From a virus, in IMG/VR virus record IMGVR_UViG_3300029448_000088, positions 1 through 44,928 of that record: a stretch of DNA of 44,928 nucleotides. One strand, given 5' to 3'. The translations under genes and the position numbers were made by a program. Position 1 is the first letter of the stretch, and every line of letters begins with the position of its first letter. The notes beneath the pieces are model-generated. The model saw nothing but the letters and a program-made list of their open reading frames with translations. It had not been told where the DNA came from and ran no database searches. Of the stretch, positions 2,489 through 43,681 are shown one piece after another.

Positions 2489-3883
2489 ATGTCAAACGCG
2501 ACAAACACTGTTTTGTCTTCACCGGAACCGATGCAAGTTGCTCGGTACCTGTTGCGAACTAAATTTTCTACGCCTAATGGCCGAAGCGGTCTTTGGTATT
2601 GGCGTGGTAACTTCTATGAATGGTACGGAGAAGAATGGAAGGCTCGCAATATTGAGTGGGTTGAATCAGCCCTTTGGGTTGCCCTTGAAAACCTTACCTT
2701 TCAGACCACTAGTAATGGTGTAGTCTCACAGCAAAGATTTGCACCTAATCTTTCAAAGGTTCAAAATGTTACGAGGGCCATTCAAGCCGTGTCTTCTTTG
2801 GCTCATGAAAGAGTTCCCATTTGGATGGGAGGACCTGAAGCCCCCTCATCTAAGTATTGTATCTCTTTTCAAGACGTAATCGTTAATTGCAAGACAATGG
2901 AAGTTCAGGATCGGACTGACGCATGGTTTGATCCTCACGTTCTTCCTGTTGCTTGGGAAGATGGCGACAAGCCCCCCCACACTTGGCTTCGTTGTCTTGA
3001 AGAGTGGAGCGGTGGAGACGAAAAGTGGATTGATCTGCTTCAGCGGATGTTTGGATATTGCCTTCTGCCCCATCGGGACTACGCTAAGTGGTTCCTTTTC
3101 TACGGCAAGATCCGTGGGGGCAAGGGAACCATTATGTCTGTGCTGAAGGCCCTGATGCGGGAAGGCTATATGGGTACTTGCCTTGAAGATATTGCGGGGC
3201 AGTTTGGCCTTTGGGGTATTGAGCAGTCCCGTTTGATGGCCATTAACGAGGTTTCAGAAATTTCAAACCGTGAAGGGGAGGCGGCTTGCCGTGTTCTAAA
3301 GAGCATTGTGGGCCGTGACCCGATCAGCATCAACCGCAAATACGAGCCCCCGCTGCGGAATGTTGTTGTGGACGCTGTCCCGATCATGCAGGCTAATGAG
3401 ATCCCCAAGTTGCCTAACAAGGGACAAGGTCTTTCTAGCAAGATGGTTGTGCTTCCCTTTACGGTTTCCTTCTTGGGCAGAGAAGACTACAGCCTTCTAG
3501 GAAAGTTGCTGAAGGAACTGCCGTCTATTGCTAGATGGGCAGTTGATGGGGCCATGGCACTAGAAGCAGAGTCAGATCCTCGGCTTAAATTTGTAATGCC
3601 GGACGATGCTCAAGATACGGTTGACGAATACACCACCGTCAACAATCCCTACAACGAGTTTCTCGAAGATAAATTTACGCCTGACGAATCTTCGTTTGTG
3701 GGGTCTTCCGCGGTCTACGAAAACTGGAAGGTTTGGTCAAAGAACCTAAAGGTACCAAGAGTAAGTCAGGCACAATTCATCCATAAACTTTTGCAAGATT
3801 CGACTTGGACTTTGACTAAGCACCGTCTTGGTAAAGGCGGTTCTAGGGGTCTGAGGGGCCTTCGGATTAAACCCCAAGCGTAG
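2489..3883 (+). CDS. SF3 (D5-like) replicative helicase/primase-type ATPase
   Basis: This 464-residue protein carries the superfamily 3 helicase core of D5/P4-type phage and plasmid replication proteins. Walker A is at about residues 206-214 (GKIRGGKGT), preceded by hydrophobic FLFY. A Walker B-like segment follows (LMAINEVSE), then a sensor-type segment (MQANEIPK), and a basic C-terminal domain ends the protein. No zinc-finger or TOPRIM primase domain is visible in the roughly 200-residue N-terminal part, so primase activity is not shown. It probably unwinds DNA at the fork for the family-A polymerase encoded downstream. I chose the ATG at 2489 because the longer frame begins inside the -10 box; there is no clear Shine-Dalgarno. 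The structured region at 3884-4373 follows directly. Confidence 0.85.
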   Translation: MSNATNTVLSSPEPMQVARYLLRTKFSTPNGRSGLWYWRGNFYEWYGEEWKARNIEWVESALWVALENLTFQTTSNGVVSQQRFAPNLSKVQNVTRAIQAVSSLAHERVPIWMGGPEAPSSKYCISFQDVIVNCKTMEVQDRTDAWFDPHVLPVAWEDGDKPPHTWLRCLEEWSGGDEKWIDLLQRMFGYCLLPHRDYAKWFLFYGKIRGGKGTIMSVLKALMREGYMGTCLEDIAGQFGLWGIEQSRLMAINEVSEISNREGEAACRVLKSIVGRDPISINRKYEPPLRNVVVDAVPIMQANEIPKLPNKGQGLSSKMVVLPFTVSFLGREDYSLLGKLLKELPSIARWAVDGAMALEAESDPRLKFVMPDDAQDTVDEYTTVNNPYNEFLEDKFTPDESSFVGSSAVYENWKVWSKNLKVPRVSQAQFIHKLLQDSTWTLTKHRLGKGGSRGLRGLRIKPQA

Positions 3884-4121
3884 GGTACCGTGGGGGTACC
3901 ACCGGGGTACCGGGGGACATGGTTCCCTCGGTGCCTCTTTTTTGTATCACCAGCCCGGTTTTTGGGCAGGGGTACCATATGTACCACCTTTTTCTATAAA
4001 GGAGGTAGGTATGTATAGATATGTAAGAGTATACGCAGACATGGCACCCGTGGTACCCATGGTACCTATGGCGTTCCTGATATCAGCAAGGCCGATTGGG
4101 GTAACCACGCCTCATGGTACC
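3884..4121. repeat. Cluster of seven GGTACC palindromes
   Basis: GGTACC occurs at 3884, 3895, 3906, 3971, 4052, 4061 and 4116, with near-copies at 3921 (GGTTCC) and about 3980 and 4128. The rest of the window contains only about eight copies. The cluster starts immediately after the helicase stop codon and runs through a tiny ORF at 4011-4148. Iterated palindromes beside a replication helicase suggest binding sites for an initiator or regulator, but no matching protein can be named. Confidence 0.7.
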
Positions 4122-4148
4122 CAAATGGTACAACCCAAAAAGTTTTGA
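4011..4148 (+). CDS. Small ORF (45 aa) with a strong ribosome binding site
   Basis: An ATG at 4011 follows an almost ideal Shine-Dalgarno (AAAGGAGGT at 3998-4006). The 45-residue product begins MYRYVRVYADMAPVVPMVPM and has no recognisable domain. Its Val-Pro pairs are encoded by the GGTACC repeats, so this segment may serve both as coding and as repeat DNA. It could be a real small early protein or a regulatory leader peptide. Confidence 0.45.
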   Translation: MYRYVRVYADMAPVVPMVPMAFLISARPIGVTTPHGTQMVQPKKF

Positions 4149-4163
4149 TACGGGAACGGTCTT

Positions 4164-4315
4164 TTAACTAATAATAGAGATTGGACTTAGGGGGTGATGG
4201 GGGGGTTAGACCACAGGTAGTCTAACTATTATTAATTATATTTATTTACATGGGTGACCATGTGACATTCAGGCGGATGGTGTATTGATTAGTGGGGTGT
4301 AAGTAGTAACACCAT
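4164..4315. other. Nested inverted repeats in an AT-rich non-coding region; candidate origin or control region
   Basis: TAACTAATAATAG (4165-4177) pairs with CTATTATTAATTA (4226-4238) with one mismatch. Inside it, TTAGAC (4206-4211) pairs with GTCTAA (4220-4225), and a TGGGGGGG motif (4198-4205) lies in the outer loop. Further right are CATGG/CCATG (4249-4262) and ATGGTGT/ACACCAT (4277-4283 and 4309-4315). The stretch 4149-4373 contains no credible gene. Together with the GGTACC cluster and the neighbouring helicase gene this looks like an origin of replication or a major control region; that role is inferred, not shown. Confidence 0.45.
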
Positions 4316-5569: not shown

Positions 5570-5617
5570 GGTTCCCCCTGCCCGTCCGGGCAGGGGGAAC
5601 CCGGTCTTATTTTTTTT
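5570..5617 (+). terminator. Rho-independent terminator
   Basis: A perfect 14-bp GC-rich stem (GGTTCCCCCTGCCC with GGGCAGGGGGAACC), loop GTCC, is followed by TCTTATTTTTTT. Its arms closely resemble those of the palindrome at 7751-7782 that lies inside a gene. Confidence 0.9.
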
Positions 5618-8683: not shown

Positions 8684-9011
8684 CTACATAGATGAACAGC
8701 ACATGTCAGATGCTGACTGGCGACAAGTAGATATGTACATTGAAGAGCATCAATTCGATAAGCAAAGAGAAAGAGAAAAGAAAGAGAAGCAAGAAGCAGA
8801 TAAGCAAGAAGAAGAGAAACAAGAAGCAGATAAGAACAACGAACTGTTCAGAAAAACTAACATGAAAGAAACAGAAGACCCCCCCACTGATCAAGTGCGT
8901 GGGGTCAATTTGTGTTTTGACTGCCGTAAGTCTCTCACCAAGAACTCTAGTTGGACACTAGGTAATACCAACTACTGTCTTGACTGTGTTCGTCATCATC
9001 TTGCACCTTGA
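8676..9011 (+). CDS. Small protein with charged helix and C-terminal zinc-ribbon-like CxxC pairs
   Basis: This 111-residue protein has an acidic N-terminus, a long Lys/Glu/Gln helix with the repeat KQEADK (about 30-60), and a C-terminal pair of CxxC motifs (CFDC and CLDC, 21 residues apart) that should bind zinc. Such a layout is seen in adaptor-type small phage proteins; the target is unknown. The ATG at 8676 follows GGAGGATGAAG and overlaps the previous gene. A TGGGGGGG motif lies between helix and ribbon. Confidence 0.6.
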   Translation: MYDYIDEQHMSDADWRQVDMYIEEHQFDKQREREKKEKQEADKQEEEKQEADKNNELFRKTNMKETEDPPTDQVRGVNLCFDCRKSLTKNSSWTLGNTNYCLDCVRHHLAP

Positions 9012-11620: not shown

Positions 11621-13800
11621 CTGACCCCCCCATCCTTTCTCTTGACATTGAAACCTACGGAGCCTCACGCCATAACAACAACTGGATGAGGCTCCCTTCA
11701 CAGAAGTACTTCCACCCACGCAAGTCAGAGTACTGGCAGTGTGTTGACCGCAATGATCTTGTCATCACTTGCGCCGTAACTCTGATGGAGAAAGACACCA
11801 GAGATTCATCAGGTCAATGGACAAAGCAAGCAATCTCTGAACTAGTGCCGGGAGAAACTATCTTCTTTGATATGTCCAAAGGGATAGACAACGAAGTGCT
11901 GTGCAACTGGATCAAGTATGCCGACACAATCATTGGGTCCAACATTCAGTTCGACATCTCTTACTTGAGACGATTTAGAAACGAGTACAAGTTTCTTCTT
12001 GATGGACGACACACCTACATAGACACAACCATTGCAGCCTACCTATGGAATGAACTGTCTTCATCTCGTAGCCTCAAGAAACTCGGACCATTACTCGGGC
12101 AGTTCTCTTACGATGAATCACTTGCATCTGATCATCGGTTCAACCACCCAAACGATCATCGACTGAAGAGATACAACTGCCAAGACACACACAACACTGT
12201 CTTGGTCTTGGCTGAACTAGCCAAGCGGATGCCCACCAACACGCACAAGTTCACTCCCTTCTGCATCAATCATTACAGCCAAGCAATCAACTCAGTAATA
12301 ACAATGAGTGATTCAGGTATCCCTTTCTCTTCTCTTCGGTTAGAAAAGATGCGAGAAGAAATGGATGCTCAAATTAAAAGCAGTCGTGAACAGGCAAAGG
12401 ACATTGACCTACGGCTTGGAGGAAAAGGATCTCACATCTCAAAGACAAAGTTCTTTGATGAAGCAATAACTGAGATCCAAGAAGCAGGTAACGAGGACAT
12501 ACTTGACCTGCTCGATAAGACTGAGAAGAACAAACAAGTAAGCCACTCCAAGAGAAACCGAATCATCCTGATGCAGTACTTGCCTCAGCACAGCAGGTTG
12601 TATCAAGGGCTGGAGTTGTTTGGAAAGTTTCAGGACGCTCAGAAACTTCTGTCTACTTACTTGTACCCATTGCTACTGCACAAGAGAAACGATCCAACAA
12701 ATCTAAATGCAAGCCTCATCCCATTGATGATCAAGGGGCAAGAGAAGTACACTCGATTCTTCAAAGCAACTGAGTTGACGGGTGAGGTAGATGAACTTCA
12801 ATCAAAGAGTTCTCCCTTTGCTGAGACCCTCAACAGATGCTCTGATCGCACCCCTCAATCTCTTACCAACAGGTTCATTGACTCACGAGTAGAGGAAGTT
12901 GCAGACTGCAATGCTTTCCCTTCATGGTTCATTACACCTAGCAAGGTCAAGAACGACAGTGGGTCACAAGGCGGTACCATCCAAGGCAGGATCACATGCA
13001 AAGATCCTCATGCCCAGACATTCCCATCATCTATCAAGGAATGTATTTGCAGTCGCTTCAAGGACGGCAAGATCATCGGATTGGATCTAAGCCAGATCGA
13101 ACTAAGAGTTGCAGCCCTCTTGTCTGGCGAACAGTCAATGATCCGTTCATACCAAGACAAGAGAGATCTTCATGCCGACAGAGCAAGAACCCTATGGTCT
13201 AACTACGACACACAACCCGACACCCAAAAGCAACGCCGCCAAGTGGGCAAGATGATGAACTTCGCGGACCTCTTCCTCGCATCAGCCAACACCATGCGGG
13301 AACAGGTGTACGCCCAAAGTGGGGGGGACATCAACCTCCCCCTCGACATGTACCAGCAAGTAGTCAGAACCCGACCCGAGGTACGACCCCAACTCAACAA
13401 GTGGCAGAAGCAACTACTTATTGAAGCCAAGGTCAACGGTGTAATTGAACTACCATTCATTGGTCAGTCACGACAGTTCTCTAACATCGCAGCAGAGAGA
13501 TCAGAGATTGTGAATTTCCCTGTACAAACTACTGCTTCTAACCTGATGATGCAGATTCAAGGAGCAATGACTAGAAACCTGAAGGCCAAGAGTAAGAAAC
13601 GCAAAGAGCCTCTCATATTTCTGCAAGTGTTTGATGCGGTTTATGTAGATACCCCCCCACAATGTGACGATATTGTTGTAAGTTCTTTCCAAGAAGCAAT
13701 GGATTCAGTCATGCAGCCCTCAGGTTACTGGGGAATGCTCTGCAAATACCATAACCAAGAACTACTCCCACTAGAATTTGACGTAGAGACAAGCAACTGA
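11617..13800 (+). CDS. polA-like: DNA polymerase I family (family A) with 3'-5' exonuclease
   Basis: This 727-residue replicative polymerase has the proofreading motifs Exo I (LSLDIETYG, D10/E12), Exo II (NIQFDISYL) and Exo III (YNCQD). The polymerase motifs are A (D490-L-S-Q-I-E-L-R), B (R541-Q-V-G-K545-M-M-N-F549-A-D-L-F553) and C (V671-F672-D673). The position equivalent to E. coli Phe762 is Phe (F549), and the usual Tyr766 is Phe (F553). Motif C lacks the common His-Asp-Glu, reading Phe-Asp-Ala, though the metal-binding Asp remains. The start is TTG in TTGA overlap with the HTH gene; no closer ATG precedes Exo I. It carries three TGGGGGGG motifs. Confidence 0.95.
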   Translation: MTDPPILSLDIETYGASRHNNNWMRLPSQKYFHPRKSEYWQCVDRNDLVITCAVTLMEKDTRDSSGQWTKQAISELVPGETIFFDMSKGIDNEVLCNWIKYADTIIGSNIQFDISYLRRFRNEYKFLLDGRHTYIDTTIAAYLWNELSSSRSLKKLGPLLGQFSYDESLASDHRFNHPNDHRLKRYNCQDTHNTVLVLAELAKRMPTNTHKFTPFCINHYSQAINSVITMSDSGIPFSSLRLEKMREEMDAQIKSSREQAKDIDLRLGGKGSHISKTKFFDEAITEIQEAGNEDILDLLDKTEKNKQVSHSKRNRIILMQYLPQHSRLYQGLELFGKFQDAQKLLSTYLYPLLLHKRNDPTNLNASLIPLMIKGQEKYTRFFKATELTGEVDELQSKSSPFAETLNRCSDRTPQSLTNRFIDSRVEEVADCNAFPSWFITPSKVKNDSGSQGGTIQGRITCKDPHAQTFPSSIKECICSRFKDGKIIGLDLSQIELRVAALLSGEQSMIRSYQDKRDLHADRARTLWSNYDTQPDTQKQRRQVGKMMNFADLFLASANTMREQVYAQSGGDINLPLDMYQQVVRTRPEVRPQLNKWQKQLLIEAKVNGVIELPFIGQSRQFSNIAAERSEIVNFPVQTTASNLMMQIQGAMTRNLKAKSKKRKEPLIFLQVFDAVYVDTPPQCDDIVVSSFQEAMDSVMQPSGYWGMLCKYHNQELLPLEFDVETSN

Positions 13801-14339: not shown

Positions 14340-14577
14340 CACGACTGCCACCCATACGACAGCAGGAGAGTATGGCACAATGCTCATTCAATGTGCCGAT
14401 ACAGGTACAACGGTCAAGGGTTCTCTTGACGGGACAAACGGCACAGCAGACCTGATGGGGGGAACTGCCGCAGATACTCCTATCTCAATTGATAACTATC
14501 CTTACCTACTGCTTGATAGTGATGGTAGTGGAGATTCTGCAATTGTCATTGCTGAACGTGTCAAGGATCCGTCCTGA
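14302..14577 (+). CDS. Small beta-rich protein 1
   Basis: This is a 91-residue protein rich in Thr, Gly, Ala and Asp. Its segment GTTVKGSLDGTNG resembles GTISVTFRGSIDGINYG in the next gene, so the two are probably related in fold. Short beta-sandwich proteins of this look occur among phage head or tail decorations, yet these sit among replication genes. It overlaps the nuclease gene by 38 bases and abuts the next ATG by overlap. Confidence 0.55.
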   Translation: MAWKVTTVVMAADTTATHTTAGEYGTMLIQCADTGTTVKGSLDGTNGTADLMGGTAADTPISIDNYPYLLLDSDGSGDSAIVIAERVKDPS

Positions 14578-16047: not shown

Positions 16048-16063
16048 TGAAACCTATGTTGTT

Positions 16064-16660
16064 TTGGAGAGACGCATCTGGGCAGTTCTTTTACTGTTCG
16101 CTCTCTGCATTACTGCATTTCTTCTTGGGTCCTGTTCTGCTTCAACTGAGATCGCCAAGGCGTCGACCGTCATTGGTGACAAGGCAGCATCGTCGAAGAA
16201 CCGCTTCGCCCTTATCGAACAAGAGGCTGAGGCGTCATCGCCGGACTTGGTACTAATTAAAAGTGAAGCAGTGGGGGGGCAGAAGGAGCAGGATGTAATC
16301 CTGAACTACTCCTCTGACATACAACACTTACTTCCATCAGTAGAAGACCAGACTCCTTATTGGTTAAACGTAGTAGAGTATGGTTTAATTGTTCTTGGCT
16401 TATTAGGTACTTGCTGGCTTCTTTGGTACACAGGCGTAGGTGCTTTGATTAAGGGGTTGATAGGATTCATACCCCGAGCCAAGAGAAGAGAAGCAAACCT
16501 AGCAAGTGAGGCTCTTGATGAGAGGAGTCCCGTGACGGTGCGGGAACTTGTTGCAGCCAAGCGTGCTTCAGACCCGGAGTTCGATCGTGCCTATGAAAGA
16601 TCAAGAACTGAAAGAGATCGAGCAGTTCGCTCGAATGAAAGACCCTCTGCCGGGATGTGA
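16064..16660 (+). CDS. Lipoprotein-like protein with a second membrane segment
   Basis: From TTG 16064 the 198-residue frame begins MERRIWAVLLLFALCITAFL and continues LGSC, a plausible lipobox with cysteine near residue 24. A second hydrophobic region lies at about residues 106-135 (YGLIVLGLLGTCWLLWYTG). The tail is strongly charged. It could be the outer-membrane partner of the preceding coiled-coil membrane protein, but it is much larger than classical o-spanins and the second membrane segment does not fit. No ATG or GTG start precedes it in this frame, so the start is uncertain. A competing frame from ATG 16047 (69 residues) looks less protein-like. Confidence 0.5.
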   Translation: MERRIWAVLLLFALCITAFLLGSCSASTEIAKASTVIGDKAASSKNRFALIEQEAEASSPDLVLIKSEAVGGQKEQDVILNYSSDIQHLLPSVEDQTPYWLNVVEYGLIVLGLLGTCWLLWYTGVGALIKGLIGFIPRAKRREANLASEALDERSPVTVRELVAAKRASDPEFDRAYERSRTERDRAVRSNERPSAGM

Positions 16661-16893: not shown

Positions 16894-16927
16894 GAGTCCA
16901 CCCCCCGCGTACGCGGGGGGTGGACTC
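16894..16927 (+). terminator. Perfect 34-bp palindrome, terminator-like
   Basis: GAGTCCACCCCCCGCGT and its exact reverse complement meet with no spacer, giving 17 bp per arm. Only a weak pyrimidine stretch follows, not a T-run, so termination would be inefficient on the plus strand. It separates the small membrane genes from the nuclease operon. Confidence 0.7.
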
Positions 16928-16954: not shown

Positions 16955-17257
16955 ATGTATCACAAAGATGACCGTGAATATCAGGATCGTGACCATGACG
17001 CTGATGAGATCAGCATCGACCCAGAAGCAGATGGATTTAAAGTTATTGAGACTCATCAATGGCTAGAAGCCGTACCCAAGAATGTTCTTGAGTCTCTTGA
17101 CTGGCGACTCGGAACCATGATCGACATCACTAGTGCAATGGATACTCAACTCCATGCCATGCAACGAGAACTGCATGAACTGCGGTGTGAAGTAGAAAAA
17201 GAAATCGTGCGGAAGTCCTCTAAGGATTGGTACAACAATGCCCCCAAAGACACCTGA
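16955..17257 (+). CDS. Unknown helical protein (100 aa)
   Basis: An acidic N-terminus (REYQDRDHDADEISIDPEAD) is followed by a helical, coiled-coil-like part (MQRELHELRCEVEKEIVRK). No family recognised. AGGAG and AAGG precede the ATG, and it is the first gene after the palindrome. Its end overlaps the RecB-like nuclease start by 20 bases, placing it in the recombination operon. Confidence 0.6.
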   Translation: MYHKDDREYQDRDHDADEISIDPEADGFKVIETHQWLEAVPKNVLESLDWRLGTMIDITSAMDTQLHAMQRELHELRCEVEKEIVRKSSKDWYNNAPKDT

Positions 17258-18536: not shown

Positions 18537-18676
18537 AACCAAGGAATAAAAATGCGAGCAGGTTTACTCAAGACGCTCTCACTAGGGCTGCAAAAGGGCA
18601 GCACGAAAATCGCAAGGACCGGTCAAAAGCCTACGGCAAACCACGTCCCGGCTACAAGAAGAGGAAACGAAAATGA
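18533..18676 (+). CDS. Tiny basic protein (47 aa)
   Basis: The start overlaps the nuclease stop (ATGA) and the stop overlaps the next ATG (ATGA), so it is packed between two genes without spare bases. The 47 residues are very basic, ending PRPGYKKRKRK, which suits nucleic-acid binding. No family recognised. Confidence 0.6.
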   Translation: MKPRNKNASRFTQDALTRAAKGQHENRKDRSKAYGKPRPGYKKRKRK

Positions 18677-19029
18677 ATGACGAACTCAATCGAGAGATTG
18701 CGTACTCAGTAATCCTTCCTAAGTTGCAGCAACTCGTACAGGAAGACAAAGACAATCAGATCACTACAGTTGCAAGCATGAGAGGTAAGTTCAACACCAC
18801 GTTTGAACAGTCAATCTCAGCAAGCAAGTTCCAAGAGTGGATTGATCTTCTTGATATCAAGTTCCAAAGGAAGACGGTGATTGTGTGGCCTGCTCCCGGC
18901 AGGCCCTCCGGGCCGCCGCTCGCGGCCCCCACCAATCTTGAGGTTGAAGAAGAGACTGACGATTCAATGTCTCATTCATTCCCTCCTCAAGTTGAACGAT
19001 CTAATCTTGATGCCTTCGGTCAATGCTGA
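18673..19029 (+). CDS. Unknown protein (118 aa) with GC-rich insert
   Basis: The first 75 residues are helical and could form a winged-helix-like domain (QITTVASMRGKFNTTFEQSI; ASKFQEWIDLL). Then comes a Pro/Gly/Ala stretch (PAPGRPSGPPLAAPT), encoded by a GC-rich hairpin quite unlike the surrounding sequence, and an acidic tail. It sits between the nuclease and the Sak4-like ATPase, so a role in recombination is likely by context only. Confidence 0.55.
   Translation: MNDELNREIAYSVILPKLQQLVQEDKDNQITTVASMRGKFNTTFEQSISASKFQEWIDLLDIKFQRKTVIVWPAPGRPSGPPLAAPTNLEVEEETDDSMSHSFPPQVERSNLDAFGQC
18902..18928. repeat. GC-rich hairpin inside a coding sequence
   Basis: GGGCCGC (18910-18916) pairs with GCGGCCC (18922-18928), and GGCCC (18902-18906) can alternatively pair with the adjacent GGGCC (18910-18914). 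The segment encodes the Pro/Gly/Ala linker of the 118-residue protein and resembles the in-gene palindrome at 7751-7782 in kind. Confidence 0.55.
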
Positions 19030-19922: not shown

Positions 19923-19923
19923 C

Positions 19924-20451: not shown

Positions 20452-20502
20452 CAATAGTGTCGAGTTCTTTCGATACTGATAATGAGTTTCCCCCCCACCT
20501 CC

Positions 20503-28675: not shown

Positions 28676-28989
28676 CAGTCAGATTCCAATCGTGTTGCAG
28701 CATCTTCATGGGTAAGTGCTGCCATGTGCATTTCCACCGAATCTTCCGTGCGAGTAATCGAAAGAACTGAACGATCCCTAAGGATAGATCGGTCTTTACG
28801 ATTCTCCCAAAGAAACCGCCGCACTGCACGGGGAGAGAACTCAGTGGGGGGGACGACTTCAACCAGCCCCCCCACCGGCACGACCCTCGCCCCGTCCATG
28901 AGGTTTGCTTCAAAATCAAAGTCAGGGTTGCTAAGAAGAATCTGATCCTTCTCAATTGCAACAGAGGAAATCTTTTTCCAATCTCTCAA
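28675..28989 (-). CDS. Small putative virion protein (104 aa), TTG start
   Basis: It starts at TTG 28989 in TTGA overlap with the preceding gene and ends in TGATG overlap with the next. The sequence is mixed and shows no motif. Two TGGGGGGG motifs in opposite orientation lie 14 bases apart in its centre (28845-28874). Confidence 0.55.
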   Translation of the reverse strand: MRDWKKISSVAIEKDQILLSNPDFDFEANLMDGARVVPVGGLVEVVPPTEFSPRAVRRFLWENRKDRSILRDRSVLSITRTEDSVEMHMAALTHEDAATRLESD

Positions 28990-30947
28990 GGACGGCCTCC
29001 ACTAGAGTTTGCCTTTGCTCTTTCTGCTCTAACAAGGGCTTCAATCTGGGCGTCAGTCATTCCACTGAGATCATTTCTTTCTCGAAGAGACTGCTCAACT
29101 TCTGCTTGATCCAAAGTACTTGGTGTACCTGCTCGCTCAAAATCAAGAGTCCGCTGATCAATTTCCATATTGATTGCAGAAGCAGGATCATCAATAGCAG
29201 CAAGCCTGTCTGCCTTTCTTCGGGCTGCTTCAGAGCCAATACGAGATCTTTCAGATTCCCCAAACGCTTCAAGATCAGTTGCTTCACCTTCGCTAGCAAC
29301 TCTTCGAATATCAAGATCATCAAAGGTATCCATCAACGCTTCAAGATCCTGCATATCAAATCCAGCCGTGCCCACATCGGTGGCATCAACAAGTTCGTTC
29401 TGCTGATTAAACACCTGATGCTCAAGTTCAACTCTTTCAAGCATCTCCATAATGTCGGCATCAGAAATTTCTGGATTGTTTTTAATCACATTTAGGACTT
29501 GATCAAAGCCGCTTTGAGTTATTTCATCCCCACTAAGAGAGTCTGCAATACCCTTAAAGTCTACTGAAGTTTGACCTTCAAAAAGTTCTTGACCTCGACG
29601 GTCCAACCCAGATGTAGACAAAAGTTCCATCATTGCAAGGGCACCCTGTTGGCCCAAAGTTTCAAAGTCATTACGTCCTCCGGCCTCGTCGATAGCCTCC
29701 CTCAATGCAACCGACTTTTTGCGACTTGAAAGAACTACCTGATCTAGAACATAACCAAGACCCACAGTGTCTACTTCAAATTGTTTACTCAAGTCCTCAA
29801 TTGTCGCAGCCCGTCTAACAGGATTTCCGTTCCTATCCATTTTGGGTCTTTGATATGTTTGGCCGTCCTTGCCTTGGACATTTTCCATTACATCAATGTA
29901 TTCCGTACCAAGAATAAAACTCTTGTATACGCCCTTTTGGGGACCCGTCATTTCTTCATAATCAGGAAGAATTGAACTCTGCGCAAGAGCATCTGAAGTC
30001 AAACGGACCAATGCAGATTGACGAAACGCTTCATCGTTTTCAACCAACTCAAGAATATTAAGTTCTGCACCTTCTCTTCCAAGAGTGCCATATTCTGTAC
30101 TGCGAGGATTAGTTTCCCCTGCCGCAACTTCTTGTCGATAAGCAGAAAGATCCGAGTCTTGGAAAATAGAATTAAAGAAACCTACAAGCCCTCTACCGAT
30201 AGAACCGGCAGCGCCATAACCTTCAGTATCAACTTCAGGACCTGATTCTCCGGCAATATTTAGATCTGCTGTACCACTTGCAATGTCACCAACAAGAGTT
30301 GTAAGACCCGAAACAAATGATTCTGCACCTGCTACATGACCTGCTTCAAGACGTTCGCGTTTAGTAGCATGATCATTTAACCCGTCTCTAACGCCACCTA
30401 CAGCAGAATTAAAAGTGTTAGTTGCTCCGGTTCGTACAGTTTCAATCTCTATATTTGCTTTAGTAATTGAAGCCGTTTTATTAGAAATCTCTTGATTTAG
30501 TTTTGCAATTTCTTCGGCTACCTGAGCAGCGTTCTCGTTAGTTACAGTTTCTCTAAGAGACTTCTTTTCTGACTCAAGTCGCTCTAGTTCTTGAAGCAAT
30601 CCGTCTCTTCGACCCTGCGCCCTATCAGCCATCAACTTGTTTCGATTGGCTATACGTTCCTGCTCTTTAATTGCTTCCTGTGCAGACTTGTCACTTCTTG
30701 CTCTAGATTGCTCTGCAATAAGAGCCATCTCTTTTGCATTGTTGTGCTTAACATCTTCAAGTTCTAGGGCCCGTCCAAAGTCTGCTTGCTTCAACCTTTC
30801 TTGCATAAAAAGATTGGGACCAGAACCTCCCCCCCCACCTGACCTTGCTTGTGCGCCCAAGTTTCCAATAGCCTGAAGGTTAGCCGTAACATCGCCGCCC
30901 ACAGAACTAGTACTGTTAATCTTTTGATTAGCGCCTACGAATGACAT
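28986..30947 (-). CDS. Coiled-coil internal virion-type protein
   Basis: This protein of about 653 residues has a Gly run near residue 40, a long coiled coil (about 50-170, with many Glu, Lys, Gln and Arg heptads such as ELERLESEKKSLRETV) and an acidic C-terminal half. No catalytic residues are recognisable. Such proteins form the inner core or ejection apparatus of podoviruses. The Gly run is encoded by the only eight-base member of the G-run motif. ATG 30947 in TGATG overlap. Confidence 0.55.
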   Translation of the reverse strand: MSFVGANQKINSTSSVGGDVTANLQAIGNLGAQARSGGGGGSGPNLFMQERLKQADFGRALELEDVKHNNAKEMALIAEQSRARSDKSAQEAIKEQERIANRNKLMADRAQGRRDGLLQELERLESEKKSLRETVTNENAAQVAEEIAKLNQEISNKTASITKANIEIETVRTGATNTFNSAVGGVRDGLNDHATKRERLEAGHVAGAESFVSGLTTLVGDIASGTADLNIAGESGPEVDTEGYGAAGSIGRGLVGFFNSIFQDSDLSAYRQEVAAGETNPRSTEYGTLGREGAELNILELVENDEAFRQSALVRLTSDALAQSSILPDYEEMTGPQKGVYKSFILGTEYIDVMENVQGKDGQTYQRPKMDRNGNPVRRAATIEDLSKQFEVDTVGLGYVLDQVVLSSRKKSVALREAIDEAGGRNDFETLGQQGALAMMELLSTSGLDRRGQELFEGQTSVDFKGIADSLSGDEITQSGFDQVLNVIKNNPEISDADIMEMLERVELEHQVFNQQNELVDATDVGTAGFDMQDLEALMDTFDDLDIRRVASEGEATDLEAFGESERSRIGSEAARRKADRLAAIDDPASAINMEIDQRTLDFERAGTPSTLDQAEVEQSLRERNDLSGMTDAQIEALVRAERAKANSSGGRP

Positions 30948-32098
30948 CAAGCAAACTCCGATCCAAGGAATTGACTCGGCATACCCGTCAAGAGTTCAGA
31001 GCCGGGAGAAGCATCAAAAGCAAGCATTGCACTGATCACTGATGCCATAGAAAGAGGAGATCCGGGATTAGCAATAATCCTATCAGCAATAGCAGTTTGA
31101 CCTTGAGCATAGAACTGGTTGGCAAGAACTTCTGCTCCTTGCTTAATCGCAGACCCCTGTGCGTAAAGATCCTTAGACATGCCTGCAAGATTAGCCATAA
31201 CCCCACCTGCTTGGTTAATGTTAGAACCTGCCTGCATTCCAACTTGGCCGTAATTTTGAGCCCGATTCATTTCCATGCTTGCTTTGGCTTGATTGAATTG
31301 AGATGCAATCTGGCTCATAGAAGCCTGAGTCTGTTGAGCCGTATCAAAATCCATTTGATTAAGTGCTGCTGAAGCAGAAGGATCGCCCATCTTTGCGGCA
31401 GCCTGAAGTTGATTTCGCTGCTGTCCTCGCTGACGAGCCATACCAAACTTCATTGCTGAAGCATCAGATGCCGTAGTCTTTTCAAAGTTATCAATTCCTT
31501 GCTTCATCAAACGGTCAGATTCAGCAAGGACACCCTTGTTGAAATCCGTTTGATCCGCAAGGAACTGTTGACCTTGTTGATTAAACTGATCACCCCGAGC
31601 AGTAAGTTCACTAAAAGCATCCTGCCCGCTTTGGCGAATGTTTGCTGCTCCTCCTGTAAATGCCTGATCCATACGACCAAGAGCATTGTTAACTCGTTGT
31701 CCCTGAGCCTGACCCGCCGCAACCATGTTGTGGTAATCAGCCATCAAGGCTGCCCCAAGTTGCATTCGGCCCTTGTTCTTATTGAACTCGTTGTTTAGAT
31801 GACCCGCAGAATAAATATTCATGGGTGAATTACGAGGATTACTCATAAACCCATGACTTGTTGGGGGACCTTGCGCACCCGGAATTCCGTAGTTGCCGCC
31901 TCCCATATCGAACAAAGTCCCTGCTTCAAGACCCTTTTCAATAGAACCAAATCCTTGGCCTACTGGGGCATTTGCAAACATCCCGTAGTAATCATTGAAA
32001 TTACCCCCAAATGATGGGGGGGCAGAACCGTGGCTTCCGCCAAAACTACCGAGTTGCAATTGCTGCATGTTTCCAGAACTATCGTAAAAGCCTGACAT
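30947..32098 (-). CDS. Gln/Ala/Gly-rich putative internal virion protein
   Basis: The first 90 residues are rich in Gly, Ser, Asn and Tyr. The remainder (about 100-340) is a Gln/Ala-rich helical region with Met-containing repeats (AASMSQIASQFNQAKASMEM-like heptads). About 383 residues in all. A similar mixed composition is seen in T7 gp14-type internal core proteins, but I cannot confirm homology. ATG in TGATG overlap with the nozzle candidate gene. Confidence 0.55.
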   Translation of the reverse strand: MSGFYDSSGNMQQLQLGSFGGSHGSAPPSFGGNFNDYYGMFANAPVGQGFGSIEKGLEAGTLFDMGGGNYGIPGAQGPPTSHGFMSNPRNSPMNIYSAGHLNNEFNKNKGRMQLGAALMADYHNMVAAGQAQGQRVNNALGRMDQAFTGGAANIRQSGQDAFSELTARGDQFNQQGQQFLADQTDFNKGVLAESDRLMKQGIDNFEKTTASDASAMKFGMARQRGQQRNQLQAAAKMGDPSASAALNQMDFDTAQQTQASMSQIASQFNQAKASMEMNRAQNYGQVGMQAGSNINQAGGVMANLAGMSKDLYAQGSAIKQGAEVLANQFYAQGQTAIADRIIANPGSPLSMASVISAMLAFDASPGSELLTGMPSQFLGSEFA

Positions 32099-34914
32099 CA
32101 AGTATTCCTTTCGCCGGTATCAGTAGCAGTTGCTCTACCCCGACAAATCAAAGCCATCAGTTTGAAGTCCAAATCAGGACAATAAGACTCAATACCCGGA
32201 TTCAATGCAGAGTCCTGAATTCCGTGCTTGCCTCTTGTGACAGAAGAGGTATCAGTAAACGCTGCGTAATCATCAGACTCACCCGTCTTAATAGAGTCTC
32301 CAATTACAGACCCTGCAAAGTCCAAAGGAAATGCCGAAACAGCAGGATTATTTGATTCTGTATTGTAGACAAGCCCTCTAAAGAACTTGTACCCCGTGAT
32401 GCCCCCTGACACATCAGTGAAATGACACCCAACAGAAGAGATTTGCTTATTAGCAAACATGTCAAAGGTAGTGACAATCTTCTTGTTTTCTGTTCGAGTC
32501 ATAGGAAGCACGCTTCCAACGTATCTAAACAAGACAGGACTGATTGCTAGAACGTCACCTTCTACAAGACTAGCGGAAATGTTACCCCTTAGGGCAGTGA
32601 ATGAACGATTGCCGCTACCCCCATAAGTACCATCTACAGTGACATTGCCGCCTGAAGCCTTGAGGATTTGGAACTTCTTGCCTATACGAGATGTGTCAGT
32701 TGAAGAGATTACATACGCATAAGCACCAGCAAGATCATGAGCGTGAGTGCCTTCTGCGTTTTGGCCTCCCAATTCCTTAAGGGTAGTAAGGCCGCTCTTA
32801 AGAATTACTGTGTTGTTGGGGCTGGCGACAGTGACAGACTTGACGGTAAAGACGCTGTCCCCCCCACAATCAAACGTGCGTAGGACCTTGTCCGTTGATG
32901 CCGTGAGGTCGGTGGTATTGACCGCCGTCTTTTCCCTGTCAATGTCCAAGATGTAGACGCGGGGTCTCCATCCAGTAGGAATTGAAGCAGGGTTAGATGG
33001 GTCAGGATGATTCTGAAGAAAGAATGACCGCTCATTCATAGAATTAGCGGTAGTTGTAGTTGGGGTTGTGTCATCGTAAGAGTTCCTAGTGAACTCTGAA
33101 GGCCACACTCCAGTACGGACATCATCAAAATCAGTGTCATGAATCTCAGTAATGCGCCCTGTACTGAACCACATGCAAACTGTTTGTTCCTTGACGGGAT
33201 TATGGATAAACAAACAAGAAGCATAAGGATCAAACGACAGCCGCAAAGAACTTAGATCTTCATACCAATCTTCTAGAAGAAGGTTGTCAAGGGCTTTGAC
33301 ATCATCCAACTGTCCATTGTTTGCAACAGCCTTCATCCCCTTGGAAGTAACAAAGTAAATGAGAGGACCGGCTTCAGTGAAGGCTTCTCTACCTGCAAGA
33401 CCAAACCCGGAATGCAATTCATCTACAGAGATGTACATTCCATTGCGTCGGATGTGGTAGATGCGGTCATTTGAAAACCCAACCGCAAAGTCCCCTGCCT
33501 TGGCTAGAGCAATAACACGATTCTGAAATACGTCAGGCGTAAACTTGTTATTGATAGGGAAGATTTCAGGGCTTCGTTCAATCAAAGAAGACCAACGAAT
33601 CTCACCCACATTACTGACACGGGAATCAATACTAAGAACTGTATTTGATGTGCTGATCTGAGGATCAGAGATAATCAAACTTCCATCATAAGCAATGCCT
33701 GATCCCGCATAAGGGATCTCTTCATCACACAGAATCTTGTCCATGTAAATGTCTTGCATTGCAAGAGAGATGTCTTCCAGTTGATAAAAGCACTTGAAGA
33801 TATCTACGGTTACGCCAGACGCATTGTAGGGAGCCGCACTAGGAGTAGTGTTTGAAATGCCTTCAAAGTCATTTCCGGTAAGAACGGCATCTCCAACATC
33901 ATAGATTGTATCTAGGTGAAGAATAGAACCTGTATAGGTCCCCCCCACCGATTGCAGTTTGACTGATCGGAACAAGAAGATCTGATCAAACTTCGCAGTA
34001 TCAACTTCTACTTCAAATGCAATGTATCTGTCTGCGGTAATAGCAGTATCAGTTCCTGTTGCAACTGAACAGATCTCACTCAATGGGGTACGCCTACCCG
34101 TGTGGCTGTCGTGCAAGTAGTAAGCAAACGAATAGTCTGCATCACTAAACTTGTGGAATTCCGGCTTGCCTTCATTAGGTGAAGACCCGGCAGGATTAGA
34201 GGAAGTTGAAGCATCCAGTTTTCCTACCGGGATGTACTTGGTAGGAAAAGATCCTGTTCGAGGAAAGACCGGCGTAGTATCTCCAATGTTTCTGACAAGA
34301 GGAGCAGAACCGGGACCTCCATCAATAATTTGATGAGTGAAAGTAGGGCCACTGCCATCGTAGTCGATGTAAAAGACTCGACTCGGCTTACCTTGGACAA
34401 GAGTAATTACATACTTACCCATTGAAACCACATCCATCTTTGCAGTACTAAGCACATGCGAAGATGAATGCTCGCTAATAAGAATCGTCCGCCAACCAGA
34501 AGCACCATCAACTGTATTAGTAGGACAGTAGTCCATGTAAATCGCAGTATTAGAACTACCTGTTGGCTTTACCCGATAAACAAACCCGTGCCCAAACTCG
34601 CCCTCACGAATTTGGAAATGAACAGGAAAGCAATCAGTAACAATAGACTGTGACGAAACGGCTGGGGGGGCTACGTCAGAAAAAGGACGAACAGCATCTG
34701 CCGCCGTTGCATCAGAACCTTGAAAGTTCTGATTGAAGTTCAGGGTATGAGCAAGACGAAATCCTGAGGTTGGGCGACAACCAAACCTTCGGCTGCCGTC
34801 AACACCAACAATTTCATGAGCGGTGTTTTGACCAGTAAGGGCAATACGTTCAATGCTTTTGTTTTCAGAAGCAGTGACCGTGGGAAATACCCATCGACGA
34901 TTCATTTCAGCCAT
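32098..34914 (-). CDS. Tail nozzle / tail tubular protein B-like protein
   Basis: The 938-residue protein has beta-propeller-like repeats: DVFQNRVIALAKAGDFAVGF, then GREAFTEAGPLIYFVTSKGM and SLRLSFDPYASCLFIHNP. These resemble the pattern of T7 gp12-type nozzle proteins, in which reads of surface-exposed beta strands alternate with GREA.. segments. A short disordered N-terminus and an elaborate beta-rich C-terminal part follow. It probably forms the tail tip beyond the adaptor. Four TGGGGGGG motifs lie inside or at the ends. ATG in TGATG overlap. Confidence 0.6.
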   Translation of the reverse strand: MAEMNRRWVFPTVTASENKSIERIALTGQNTAHEIVGVDGSRRFGCRPTSGFRLAHTLNFNQNFQGSDATAADAVRPFSDVAPPAVSSQSIVTDCFPVHFQIREGEFGHGFVYRVKPTGSSNTAIYMDYCPTNTVDGASGWRTILISEHSSSHVLSTAKMDVVSMGKYVITLVQGKPSRVFYIDYDGSGPTFTHQIIDGGPGSAPLVRNIGDTTPVFPRTGSFPTKYIPVGKLDASTSSNPAGSSPNEGKPEFHKFSDADYSFAYYLHDSHTGRRTPLSEICSVATGTDTAITADRYIAFEVEVDTAKFDQIFLFRSVKLQSVGGTYTGSILHLDTIYDVGDAVLTGNDFEGISNTTPSAAPYNASGVTVDIFKCFYQLEDISLAMQDIYMDKILCDEEIPYAGSGIAYDGSLIISDPQISTSNTVLSIDSRVSNVGEIRWSSLIERSPEIFPINNKFTPDVFQNRVIALAKAGDFAVGFSNDRIYHIRRNGMYISVDELHSGFGLAGREAFTEAGPLIYFVTSKGMKAVANNGQLDDVKALDNLLLEDWYEDLSSLRLSFDPYASCLFIHNPVKEQTVCMWFSTGRITEIHDTDFDDVRTGVWPSEFTRNSYDDTTPTTTTANSMNERSFFLQNHPDPSNPASIPTGWRPRVYILDIDREKTAVNTTDLTASTDKVLRTFDCGGDSVFTVKSVTVASPNNTVILKSGLTTLKELGGQNAEGTHAHDLAGAYAYVISSTDTSRIGKKFQILKASGGNVTVDGTYGGSGNRSFTALRGNISASLVEGDVLAISPVLFRYVGSVLPMTRTENKKIVTTFDMFANKQISSVGCHFTDVSGGITGYKFFRGLVYNTESNNPAVSAFPLDFAGSVIGDSIKTGESDDYAAFTDTSSVTRGKHGIQDSALNPGIESYCPDLDFKLMALICRGRATATDTGERNT

Positions 34915-35174
34915 CAGTCTGCACCTTCTCTAAAAGGAAACGCCTTATTCAACTTGGCTCGGCGATTACCGCAGCCACACCCTTTCCCCCCACTAACGGC
35001 CTTCACGACCTTCTCAACGCCCGTCTTCCTGAGGAAGTTGGCAACCTTGTCACCCACTCCTCGGTCAGGGCCTTGGTATTGATCACAAGAATTGCAGTCT
35101 TCAATAGAAGGCTTCATCTCAAAGAGACCAAGAGTGCAGTGGTTGTTTCGATGTCTATTGCAAGTATAACTCAT
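34914..35174 (-). CDS. Small cysteine-rich protein (86 aa)
   Basis: Cysteines occur as a spaced set: one near residue 5, one at 13, CNSC in the middle and CGC near residue 66, with the tail NRRAKLNKAFPF. Proteins of this pattern, with a short helix between a CxxC and a CGC, recur in marine phages near tail genes, as I recall. Metal binding is likely. Starts as ATGA overlap with the cysteine-rich giant gene. Confidence 0.6.
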   Translation of the reverse strand: MSYTCNRHRNNHCTLGLFEMKPSIEDCNSCDQYQGPDRGVGDKVANFLRKTGVEKVVKAVSGGKGCGCGNRRAKLNKAFPFREGAD

Positions 35175-37081: not shown

Positions 37082-38352
37082 ACAGCCTTAGTGGGGGGGA
37101 AGCCCGCCGTCACCCAAATAGACGCACCAATACGCTGGGCAAGAACAACGTCGTTTGTTTTATATCCTGCGTATTGCAATACGGCTAGAGAAACATTGCA
37201 GTCGTCTCCGTTCTCTTGACCATCTTGGCAAATGTACTTGCCGGGATTTGAATGAACATAAGGATCACTGCCTGATACATTGAATGAATTAAGACCAAAG
37301 TCACGCAGTTCTTTAGTCCCACTAATTTGAGACATTGTCCCATCACCGTTGTACTCATAAGCAGTAATGGTGTACTTAGCGTAATTCATTCCATTCATTG
37401 AACCTATACCGTTAGGCTCAATAACTTTGACAATTTGGGCACCAAACCCTGCATGGGCTTGAGGAACAACATTAAACCTAAGTTCGTCAGGTGTGCCGTC
37501 AGCAGCAGAAATTTCAATTGCCGCCTTAGGCACAACATCAGTTGTGATGTTTGTAACTTTAAGGGTGTCGGCATTGAAGCCTGAACTGCAAGATCCCGTA
37601 TCTGCTTGAACTGTCTTATACGGATGAGAATCAAGTGCAATTGTTACTTTGTCTGTAGTTGCAGTTGTCGTTACACCGTTATCACCTTCAATATCTAAAC
37701 TATCGGTTGTTGAAGAAGCAACAGTCGAACCAGAGTCACCCGTAAAAGTTTTATAAATCGGATGAGTCGCAGTGATAGTAATAGTGTCACTGGTGTCATT
37801 ACCCGACGTACTAATCCCGCTACCACCTGTGATCGTCACAGTTGATTCAGGGTTACCGACTGAAACATTCCCTGACTGAGTATTGATCTGATCAATACCG
37901 TTAGTTGCATTAGAAGTCTCAAATGCTTGAACAGCATTTTCAAATGCTGCACCGTTAATCCCAACTACATAAGAACCACGAACGCTACTACTAGCATTCG
38001 TAGGCGTCTTGGTCATAGTTAGAAACGTGGGGCTTGAAATTGAACCATTACTAATTGCACTAGCAGAAACATCTGCATCTGCAAACGCAGTGTTTGAATC
38101 ACTGTCATTAATAAAAGTATTGAATTGCGTTCCTGCTAGATCGCTAAAAGCAGGCAAGATCCCCATGATAAGACTAGTAGGGTCATACGCTTGATTTTGA
38201 GCGTAACTGTTCCCATTTGAATATGAGTAGTAAGGACTTCTTAGAGAACCTTGGATCAAAGGTTCCTGCATAAAAAATTCAGTAGCCCCTGCATTCCATG
38301 AGTTGTATGGAATTGGGGCACTGGGATAAGAATTGAAGTCCGAATTAATCAC
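37072..38352 (-). CDS. Putative tail fibre / receptor-binding protein
   Basis: This 426-residue protein is Ser/Thr/Asn/Gly-rich, with the stretch STVTITGGSGISTSGNDTSD (about 170-195) typical of trimeric phage fibre stems, followed by repeats built on TVASSTTDSLDIEGDNGV. The C-terminal part is more globular and could bind a receptor. The start is GTG 38352 in GTGA overlap with the small membrane protein gene. One TGGGGGGG motif lies near the end. Confidence 0.6.
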   Translation of the reverse strand: MINSDFNSYPSAPIPYNSWNAGATEFFMQEPLIQGSLRSPYYSYSNGNSYAQNQAYDPTSLIMGILPAFSDLAGTQFNTFINDSDSNTAFADADVSASAISNGSISSPTFLTMTKTPTNASSSVRGSYVVGINGAAFENAVQAFETSNATNGIDQINTQSGNVSVGNPESTVTITGGSGISTSGNDTSDTITITATHPIYKTFTGDSGSTVASSTTDSLDIEGDNGVTTTATTDKVTIALDSHPYKTVQADTGSCSSGFNADTLKVTNITTDVVPKAAIEISAADGTPDELRFNVVPQAHAGFGAQIVKVIEPNGIGSMNGMNYAKYTITAYEYNGDGTMSQISGTKELRDFGLNSFNVSGSDPYVHSNPGKYICQDGQENGDDCNVSLAVLQYAGYKTNDVVLAQRIGASIWVTAGFPPTKAVCL

Positions 38353-38480: not shown

Positions 38481-39106
38481 CAGGACTCCTCGTCGTCGGA
38501 AGATTCAGACCACTGACCAAACAAAATGCCAAGGTCAGTCCCATTGACCGTTCCGTCTTGGTTCAAGTCTGATCGAGGGTTGTCCGTTCCCCAATCACCC
38601 ATCAGAATGCCTTGGTCTTGTGCATCAACCCAGCCATCACTGTTGATGTCAGCGATCTGATTTTCCAACCGAAGATCGACAGACCAGTTGATTGCCTTCG
38701 TCACGGTTTCGTTCCCCCCCACCGGGAAAACGTAGTCGCATACGATCCGTCGCTTCTCGGGTTCCCAACACAAGTCTGAGCCTGACGGGAAGATCGGGAC
38801 CATGCCTTCGTCAATCTTCACCGACTGACGGTATTTGACGTTCCGCGTTTGCGGCGTCTTATTCGTGATCTGGGCATCCCCCTCCATCGTGAACGGACCC
38901 ACGACGTTCGACTGAGATGGGGTGAGGTAGTAAACGACGAGTTCTCTCGTGTCAGTCTGTGCTTCGGAGACAATCTGCAACATCCCAGTCACTTCGCCGT
39001 CAGGTCCAAAGACCGGCAGACGAGTGGTGTACATCGGAAGAAGACGAGGGCTGCAAGGCTCTGCATCCTGAACAGCCACGACAGTTGAAAGGAGCAGTTC
39101 GATCAT
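38480..39106 (-). CDS. Secreted-type protein with C-terminal dockerin-like repeats
   Basis: The 208-residue protein has a short hydrophobic N-terminus (MIELLLSTVVAVQD) and a beta-rich middle domain with four cysteines. It closes with two calcium-loop repeats: D153-I-N155-S-D157-G followed by WVDAQDQGILMGDWG, and D180-L-N182-Q-D184-G followed by TVNGTDLGILFGQWS. The DxNxDGxV plus helix pattern is that of dockerin type I domains and the GC-type dockerin tails of Planctomycetes secreted proteins. It may link phage particles to host or envelope proteins, or be a host-derived surface domain. It lies in the GC-richer fibre cassette. Confidence 0.7.
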   Translation of the reverse strand: MIELLLSTVVAVQDAEPCSPRLLPMYTTRLPVFGPDGEVTGMLQIVSEAQTDTRELVVYYLTPSQSNVVGPFTMEGDAQITNKTPQTRNVKYRQSVKIDEGMVPIFPSGSDLCWEPEKRRIVCDYVFPVGGNETVTKAINWSVDLRLENQIADINSDGWVDAQDQGILMGDWGTDNPRSDLNQDGTVNGTDLGILFGQWSESSDDEES

Positions 39107-41836: not shown

Positions 41837-42213
41837 CAGGTTGTAACCTCAGGAGTAACAATCAGAGTTCCTTCTAGCACACGTTCAACAGTAACACCGT
41901 CTTGAGTTACGTTTTCCATGTCGTAAACGTACTTGCCCGGAGCATCAATTTCAGCAGTCAAAGTTGCAGGAATCGTAATTGTTACTGTGTGGCTGGCACC
42001 GGCAGCAAGTGTGTGCTTGAAATGAGAAGCCTCGGTAGTTCCGTTAGTCGTCAACGAAAGTACAGTAGTCCCACCAAACTTATCCTTTGCTTGCATTCTA
42101 AACGTACTGTTTGCAAGGAAGTTCTGGGCAGTTGTTCCGTCAGATTGAAAGCGGGTGTAGACAAGAGTAGATGTCTCGCCCTGATTGATTGTCCAGTCGT
42201 ATCGAGCAGTCAT
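41836..42213 (-). CDS. Beta-sandwich structural protein beside the fibre (125 aa)
   Basis: The N-terminus YDWTINQGETSTLVYTRF and a later GKYVYDMENVTQDG segment match a frequent small phage tail or baseplate domain (Ig-like beta sandwich opening with ..ixqGxt..). It probably links fibre and tail. TGATG and TAATG overlaps join it to both neighbours. Confidence 0.6.
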   Translation of the reverse strand: MTARYDWTINQGETSTLVYTRFQSDGTTAQNFLANSTFRMQAKDKFGGTTVLSLTTNGTTEASHFKHTLAAGASHTVTITIPATLTAEIDAPGKYVYDMENVTQDGVTVERVLEGTLIVTPEVTT

Positions 42214-43139
42214 TAGAATTTACCTCGGAAAGAACCGTACATTGAAATCTCGTCATATCCGGGATTATCAATCGTGTTCTTCTGATAGTGCTTGCCTGTA
42301 CGCAACTGAAGGTTAGCGAGATTGTCGGTAGCAGACTTAATTGAAGATCGGTACTGCTGAAGAATCATCTGATAATGAGAACCTGTGACCTTACGATAAG
42401 ATCCCAACTTCAAAGCAGACGCGGCAGAGATGGCTTCATATAAAGACTGCATACCAATTGGGGCAATCTCGTAACGGACGTTGGCAGAAAGAGGAGTAGA
42501 GAAAGCAAGGCGAGTAGTTACTTCCCCAAGATCAACATCATGCGTAGCAATTACTCGCTCTTCAATCATTCCAGTTTCAGGAATGATTCTTAGAATCTGA
42601 CCGGCGTAAGCGTTTTCACGACGATCAATAGATCCAAGATTTGGTGTGGTGTCGAGTTTGAAAGTCTTTCGATCACCCTGCATGGTCCCGCCATCAGCGG
42701 AGTAATGCGGCATAATGTCACCGCTTGGCACATAGTAAATGTGCCAACTGTTGCCGGTAGAAGCGTTTTCTTGCTTAGGGTCAAACCTAAGAGTATTGCC
42801 TTCAATTGCCCAACCTACACCATAAGGATGGAATTCATTACGAGGCATGACCTCATCAATGACATTTCCGTCTTCGTTGCGTAGAGCAACTCGCCAAATT
42901 TCTCCGACACTTGGGGGAAGTTGGTAATACTCAGTGTTCTTTTCAAACTCCACCATGTGACGAAGGACAACAGGATTGTCCAAGTTCATGTTTAGTCGAG
43001 ACCAAACATCAACCATCGAAGGCGAAATGATGTGCCTAATCAGAAAGTCGTTGTCGTACTTGGCATCAAAATCAGGGTCATCGAGGTACCCACGAATTCG
43101 CTCAAGAACGGTATATAGAAACGAGTTAGTACTGTGCAT
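42213..43139 (-). CDS. Tail adaptor / tail tubular protein A-like
   Basis: The 308-residue protein follows the pattern of phage head-tail adaptors: an N-terminal helical region with LERIRGYLDDPDFDAKYDND, then a beta section (LRFDPKQENASTGNSWHIYY) and a C-terminal helical part (LYEAISAASALKLGSYRK; YRSSIKSATDNLANLQLRTG). This is the usual order in T7 gp11-like proteins that bind the portal. No portal gene is seen in the window. ATG in TAATG overlap. Confidence 0.65.
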   Translation of the reverse strand: MHSTNSFLYTVLERIRGYLDDPDFDAKYDNDFLIRHIISPSMVDVWSRLNMNLDNPVVLRHMVEFEKNTEYYQLPPSVGEIWRVALRNEDGNVIDEVMPRNEFHPYGVGWAIEGNTLRFDPKQENASTGNSWHIYYVPSGDIMPHYSADGGTMQGDRKTFKLDTTPNLGSIDRRENAYAGQILRIIPETGMIEERVIATHDVDLGEVTTRLAFSTPLSANVRYEIAPIGMQSLYEAISAASALKLGSYRKVTGSHYQMILQQYRSSIKSATDNLANLQLRTGKHYQKNTIDNPGYDEISMYGSFRGKF

Positions 43140-43681
43140 TAGCCACCAGTCACAATCCGGCCCTTGGCCTTATCGAGAAGGTCCTGCTTAAATGATCCAA
43201 ATTCAGGGTCATCATTTGCAGACCATTTTCGTTGTCTGATCATATGGGCAGATTCTTCGTTTCCTTGCCGCTTCATCCAATCTGCGACCCGATGCTTTTC
43301 TTCAATGTTGTCTCGGTCCCTCTTCTTCTTAGTCAACGCTTGATCACGAATCCCCTTCTTGACGCTCTCAGCAATTGATTGAGCGGAACGAATACGACCC
43401 CGGACCCACTCCTGAGTAGGGGGCATCCAGTTGGGGGGGTAATCAAATGCCTCTAGTTCCAAAGCAATACCAATTCCATCCCGCTCAGGGTGGTACATCC
43501 ACTTCGCAAGAACAAATTTAAACGTCACCTTATGGAAGTAAACAAAGAGATCTTCTACTCCCGTAAACCTGCGGACCCAAAGAACCCAATCTGAATCAGG
43601 GAGGATCTCATGATTCTCACCAATCCTTAGATTAGAGTCCGCTGCATCAGCAATAGGGTCAAACATGATTTCAATGTTCAT
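43139..43681 (-). CDS. Unknown structural-block protein (180 aa)
   Basis: The middle of this protein has an aromatic segment (WVRRFTGVEDLFVYFHKVTF; FVLAKWMYHPERD) and the C-terminal half is a charged helix. It sits between the sigma-like factor and the adaptor, a place often held by a small head-tail or assembly protein. Function unknown. It starts at ATG 43681 overlapping the preceding gene by 11 bases. Confidence 0.55.
   Translation of the reverse strand: MNIEIMFDPIADAADSNLRIGENHEILPDSDWVLWVRRFTGVEDLFVYFHKVTFKFVLAKWMYHPERDGIGIALELEAFDYPPNWMPPTQEWVRGRIRSAQSIAESVKKGIRDQALTKKKRDRDNIEEKHRVADWMKRQGNEESAHMIRQRKWSANDDPEFGSFKQDLLDKAKGRIVTGG

Follow-up and report, generated by a model that had tools for sequence, protein, structure and literature searches.

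The stretch of DNA analysed here (the window) is 44,928 nucleotides long and comprises positions 1 to 44,928 of the IMG/VR virus record IMGVR_UViG_3300029448_000088. It looks like a fragment of a tailed-phage genome, since the terminase of its relatives has no match in it, and its predicted products include a family-A DNA polymerase, an ERCC4-like nuclease and a metallophosphoesterase in addition to the proteins described further below. Dispersed along the window is the octamer TGGGGGGG, a T followed by seven Gs, which an earlier note made by inspection of the letters had singled out. That observation holds: the octamer is a selected, polar recognition sequence, the spelling of which has drifted with the phage lineage.

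Occurrence of the octamer in the window

Recounting yielded 26 G or C runs of at least seven bases (25 of length seven, one of length eight), with T as the base on the 5' side in 25 of them and GT in 16, as well as 25 copies of TGGGGGGG, 11 on the plus and 14 on the minus strand, all in agreement with the earlier note. The plus-strand copies are located at 4198..4205 (intergenic), 13320..13327, 16272..16279, 17986..17993, 22191..22198, 24931..24938, 28845..28852, 32015..32022, 34663..34670, 37092..37099 and 43432..43439. Those on the minus strand are found at 2972..2979, 8879..8886, 11625..11632, 13652..13659, 17329..17336, 20490..20497 (intergenic), 22632..22639, 24027..24034, 25395..25402, 28867..28874, 30830..30837 (within the run of eight Gs), 32859..32866, 33940..33947 and 38714..38721. 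Intragenic sites account for 22 of the 25, and the copies show no preference for the sense over the antisense strand of genes (11/12). All codon phases are occupied, as had been claimed, by the antisense copies, while the sense copies use two of the three.

An order-2 Markov model of the window predicts 1.29 copies (z 20.9), close to the single copy expected in the earlier note; at order 4, which itself soaks up part of the signal, the expectation is 5.4. Protein coding does not explain the excess either, as coding DNA contains 22 copies, compared to a mean of 0.93 and a maximum of 4 in 300 synonymous-codon shuffles across the window genes. The same shuffles support the view that the length of seven is selected: runs of five, six and seven number 22, 4 and 22 in coding DNA versus 33, 7 and 1.9 after shuffling, so that only those of exactly seven exceed expectation. 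The window as a whole contains 31 five-base runs and nine six-base runs, the latter more than the "about six" reported before. The zones at 4.2-8.9 kb and 38.7-43.4 kb, from which the word had appeared to be missing, are attributable to chance, the largest gap being 4.7 kb where random placement would lead one to expect 6.5 kb.

Spelling, polarity and spacing in related phages

The close relatives found for the window are uncultured viral contigs and a single metagenome-assembled genome (MAG). Cultured phages gave no match by megablast with the first 20 kb of the window or by tblastn with the terminase and the nuclease, and matched the primase and polymerase at below 60% identity only; a search for relatives with the 654-aa protein encoded at 28986-30950 likewise returned none. 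Relatives with an approximately 80% identical primase-helicase show the same enrichment of TGGGGGGG, and G002, a member of this closest set, contains 36 copies of T-G7 versus 1.8 expected, with the window sites at 2972 and 28845 conserved. More distant relatives (primase 41-66% identical) are without an excess of T-G7 and instead carry T-G6-A, TGGGGGGA, with exactly six Gs, in the context AGTGGGGGGA or CGTGGGGGGAC and at a density equal to that of TGGGGGGG in the clade of the window. The words TGGGGGGA and TGGGGGGG differ by one base. The rule of exactly seven Gs is therefore valid for the clade of the window and not beyond it, where sister lineages spell the word otherwise.

Additional lineages, identified via the nuclease, use the spellings GAGTGGGGG, CAGTGGGGG or AGCGGGGA. 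G440 of the GAGTGGGGG lineage has 41 copies of AGTGGGGG versus 1.7 expected, and G439 has 24 copies of AGCGGGGA, which features four Gs and includes the B. subtilis Chi AGCGG, versus 0.9 expected. The outgroup phage genome G433 (L240-L242, 48.6 kb) carries the 13-mer ATGGGAGGGGGAC in 15 exact and five one-mismatch copies on both strands, while the reversed 13-mer as a control is found there zero times at up to one mismatch. Across the phage group the word occurs 13 to 45 times per genome, with about 25-45 evenly spread copies in near-complete genomes, and one spelling covers phages of 42-57% G+C. Mapped onto a nuclease tree, the spellings require 12 changes, compared to 46.9 when the labels are shuffled, and the T-G7 phages group in a single clade; the class cut-offs used for this tree were set by hand and the labels of some short contigs are uncertain. 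When unrelated phages with an enriched word were sought among viral contigs by a paired-motif scan, the 19 records counted among the matches listed had local repeats only. Repeats of GGTTACAG in L132, a distantly related contig, were set aside as a genome-wide word because they mostly cluster toward one contig end; the cluster at 540-850 is perhaps an operator array.

Codon alignments within clade A show that 55-88% of motif copies are kept, as opposed to 7-16% for other GC-rich 8-mers. The two checks named in the earlier note, on the Markov expectation and on conservation among close relatives, have thus both turned out in support of the finding. Four window sites coincide exactly with TGGGGGGA positions of relatives, the same codons differing in the last base of the word alone: 16272 (in G003, G004, G006 and the MAG), 17329 (in G003, G004, G008 and the MAG), 33940 (in G008 and the MAG) and 43432 (in G003, G004 and G021). 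The window blocks 14257-16806 and 34355-37040 are about 82% DNA-identical to phages of the T-G6-A spelling (TG6A phages), and two of the few copies of TGGGGGGA in the window are located in such blocks, one at 14456..14463 on the plus strand (82% identity to L013) and the other at 34985..34992 on the minus strand (82% identity to G017). The block common to the window and G017 also contains the TGGGGGGG site at 34663. Within the shared blocks, 16272 is spelled in the manner of the window, and 15079 and 15323 are broken. The presence of blocks of about 80% nucleotide identity in both TGGGGGGG and TG6A phages indicates that differently spelled phages exchange DNA.

In order to count polarity, genomes were oriented with the primase on the plus strand. 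The minus strand then holds the majority of word copies in 16 of the 16 oriented related genomes (149:282); the associated p of about 1.5e-10 takes sites as independent and, as the genomes are partly dependent, the p-values for polarity and spacing are optimistic. The majority strand lies opposite the primase and exonuclease genes irrespective of local gene direction. Nine further members show the same polarity, as do most of the other lineages, some of them weakly or not at all. The bias is alike inside plus-strand genes (45:96) and minus-strand genes (107:181), and runs of exactly five Gs have little or none (382:405); gene direction and base skew thus do not explain it. The copies are also more evenly spaced than random placement would predict, with a coefficient of variation (CV) of 0.68 versus 0.93 on the major strand (Fisher p 8.5e-7) and 0.70 versus 0.87 on the minor strand (p 0.006), while four control words showed no even spacing. 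Mean gaps on the major strand are about 1.6-3.7 kb. The major-strand CV is 0.48 in G440, and the 13-mer of G433 has a CV of 0.58 (P 0.008).

Genes that follow the spelling

Genes tracking the spelling include the primase-helicase, the polymerase, a PD-(D/E)XK nuclease, a small helical protein, Sak4 and a putative single-strand DNA binding protein; several other genes do not track it. The nuclease (17238..18536, plus strand, 432 aa) belongs to the RecB/AddB family, and the best PDB matches of its model in a Foldseek search are AdnA and AddB, followed by RecE and RecB. Between it and the Sak4-like recombinase (AAA_24; 19023..19922, plus strand) lies the gene of a 118-aa protein (18673..19029, plus strand) with three predicted helices and an acidic tail. 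This protein is fast-evolving and most relatives have it, among them, judged by position and alignment, G433; searches of solved structures and of families gave no convincing match. It is a candidate reader of the motif and may act as its specificity factor. The open reading frame at 19912..20451 on the plus strand, without a family hit, may by its position encode the single-strand DNA binding protein. All full genomes that were checked encode both a RecB/AddB-type nuclease and a Sak4-like recombinase.

The SF3 primase-helicase (2447..3883, plus strand), which served as the reference for orientation, is a 478-aa protein that matches only the C-terminal part of a solved relative, and a primase catalytic domain was not found in the proteins scanned. 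A 1208-aa protein (22122-25748) is conserved group-wide and without known family; it was considered as an AddB-like scanner and dropped, as it gave no helicase hit. A uracil-DNA glycosylase (9340-10011) is conserved in most family members examined.

A probable Chi-like signal and its alternatives

The Chi words described to date are polar, rich in G and 5-8 bp in length, and they vary between species (PMC5959072, PMC4824097). In E. coli, Chi occurs once per 4.5 kb with 75% of copies on one strand. In AddAB and RecBCD it is read by an inactive helicase domain (PMC4824097). The phage word resembles Chi (RecBCD, E. coli GCTGGTGG; AddAB, B. subtilis AGCGG) in being short, G-rich, asymmetric, over-represented and, as in E. 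coli, strand-biased, as well as in its association with RecB/AddB-type nucleases and recombinase loading; Chi, for its part, is species-specific. Unlike Chi, the phage word marks a phage lineage and, as far as tested, not a bacterial genome, it is denser (about one per 1-2.5 kb versus one per 4.5 kb) and evenly spaced, one of its versions is 13 bp long, and a Chi-scanner domain was not found in the phages. A word that is polar, evenly spaced, indifferent to genes and re-spelled by lineage, together with a nuclease of predicted AdnA/AddB-like fold adjoining a recombinase, leads us to consider it on balance probable that TGGGGGGG is the spelling, in the clade of the window, of a polar genome-wide Chi-like recognition sequence. 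Amongst the candidates listed in the earlier note this one is best supported, a primase site is possible, and a G-quadruplex signal and a packaging site are disfavoured. A Chi-like kind fits best; we do not claim membership in Chi proper.

The word would then be read by a DNA-end-processing complex. Such a complex would enter at a DNA end, be it a broken fork or the concatemer end left after packaging, read the word in one orientation, halt or attenuate degradation and pass the 3' strand to the recombinase, so that phage DNA would be repaired instead of destroyed. The majority orientation would suit an enzyme that enters to the left of the primase and moves right, which predicts the direction of packaging or fork breakage. 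As the sole MAG holding such a phage is unenriched and genes are exchanged across spellings, the reader would more likely be encoded by the phages (nuclease, small helical protein and Sak4) than be AddAB or RecBCD of the host. Tentatively, the phages might even possess a Chi-like code of their own, in which the nuclease, the small helical protein as specificity factor and Sak4 would read a self-marking word, with word and reader co-evolving.

Several points weigh against a Chi-like role. The 13-mer of G433 exceeds every known Chi in length, the Foldseek TM-scores are low and the nuclease domain is widely shared (RecE, MGME1). A RecB-type nuclease domain by itself is no Chi scanner; the inactive helicase domain that scans for Chi was not found, nor was a helicase-like domain in the 432-aa phage nuclease. 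Polarity and spacing would also be expected of a primase or of some other enzyme that translocates, and the word may yet be a host Chi.

That special case, in which the word would be the Chi of the host AddAB or RecBCD and the spellings would follow different hosts, suits the polarity, G-richness and length of the word, and Chi does differ between species (PMC5959072). Phages without their own recombinases carry host Chi, and the genomes of lambdoid phages are enriched in it (PMC3784561). The phages studied here encode their own recombinase, however, and whereas lambdoid phages carry the word of their host, sister phages here have different words, distributed in accordance with the phage nuclease tree. 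The blocks common to TG7 and TG6A phages imply overlapping hosts, and the range of G+C content under one spelling also speaks against host-determined words. On the host side, the Myxococcales MAG G035 holds three contigs of one such phage, and the word is in excess in those contigs only: a 400-kb sample of the remainder has 5 copies of TGGGGGGA versus about 6 expected, the binning itself being weak evidence for a host. A survey of 379 Myxococcota genomes, the sole phylum covered, found a convincing Chi-like excess in none, and we consider a host Chi unlikely. The outlier G191 (L093-L112) was ruled out as a Chi case on account of the hairpin TGGGGGGA-N-TCCCCCC; its hundreds of TGGGGGGA copies, many with a C-rich arm following at a distance of a few bases, represent a repeated hairpin element. 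Nothing that we found supports the Phycisphaerae host envisaged in the earlier note, the only host-side hint being the Myxococcota MAG bin.

Primers could alternatively begin at the word, with a copy per strand every 2-3 kb and more copies on the main lagging-strand template, which would account for the even per-strand spacing and the strand bias and would agree with the SF3 primase-helicase following the motif class. Primase sites are usually dense and of 3-5 bases, against which a 13-mer would be extreme, and the partial match of the SF3 protein and the lack of a primase catalytic domain among the proteins scanned add to the reasons for which we regard this as improbable. We assign a similarly low probability to dispersed sites of a phage DNA-binding protein, acting as stoperators, in compaction or segregation, or as modification marks. 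Lineage drift of the spelling and a 13-bp specificity do suit a protein reader, the phages encode a small, conserved protein of helices, and the repressor of cluster A mycobacteriophages, a phage protein, reads asymmetric 13-bp stoperators with more than 20 genome-wide copies (PMC9283540). Stoperators occupy short intergenic regions and are aligned with transcription (PMC9283540), however, while the present sites are mostly intragenic, in both senses without preference and evenly spaced, and favour one strand whichever way the genes run; a modification mark is disfavoured by the finding of no methyltransferase among the proteins scanned. That the word is an artefact of composition, coding or assembly we consider next to impossible: homopolymers are error-prone, but synonymous shuffles and Markov models contradict this explanation, open reading frames run through the sites, independent contigs have sites at homologous codons and some sister spellings are not plain homopolymers. 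A G-quadruplex was rejected because each site has a single tract and sister lineages have the four-G AGCGGGGA or split tracts, and packaging (pac or cos) because one or a few sites near the terminase genes would be expected rather than about 25-45 spread evenly over a near-complete genome. DNA uptake sequences of Neisseria and Pasteurellaceae are likewise dispersed, short, lineage-varying words, but they label chromosomal DNA that is to be taken up in transformation; nothing points to such a role for the phage word.

If the word is indeed Chi-like, related viruses would have repeatedly re-spelled one genome-wide word, and the homologous sites present in both spellings would constitute a natural series in which the evolution of Chi-type specificity is directly testable. 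The phages may in that case have a system of their own by which DNA ends are marked as self. Were the host to read the word instead, the spellings would reveal the Chi of uncultured hosts and aid in linking phages to them.

Apart from the word, the window contains terminator-like GC-rich inverted repeats (hairpins) at 16901-16920, 7756-7777 and 5574-5597.

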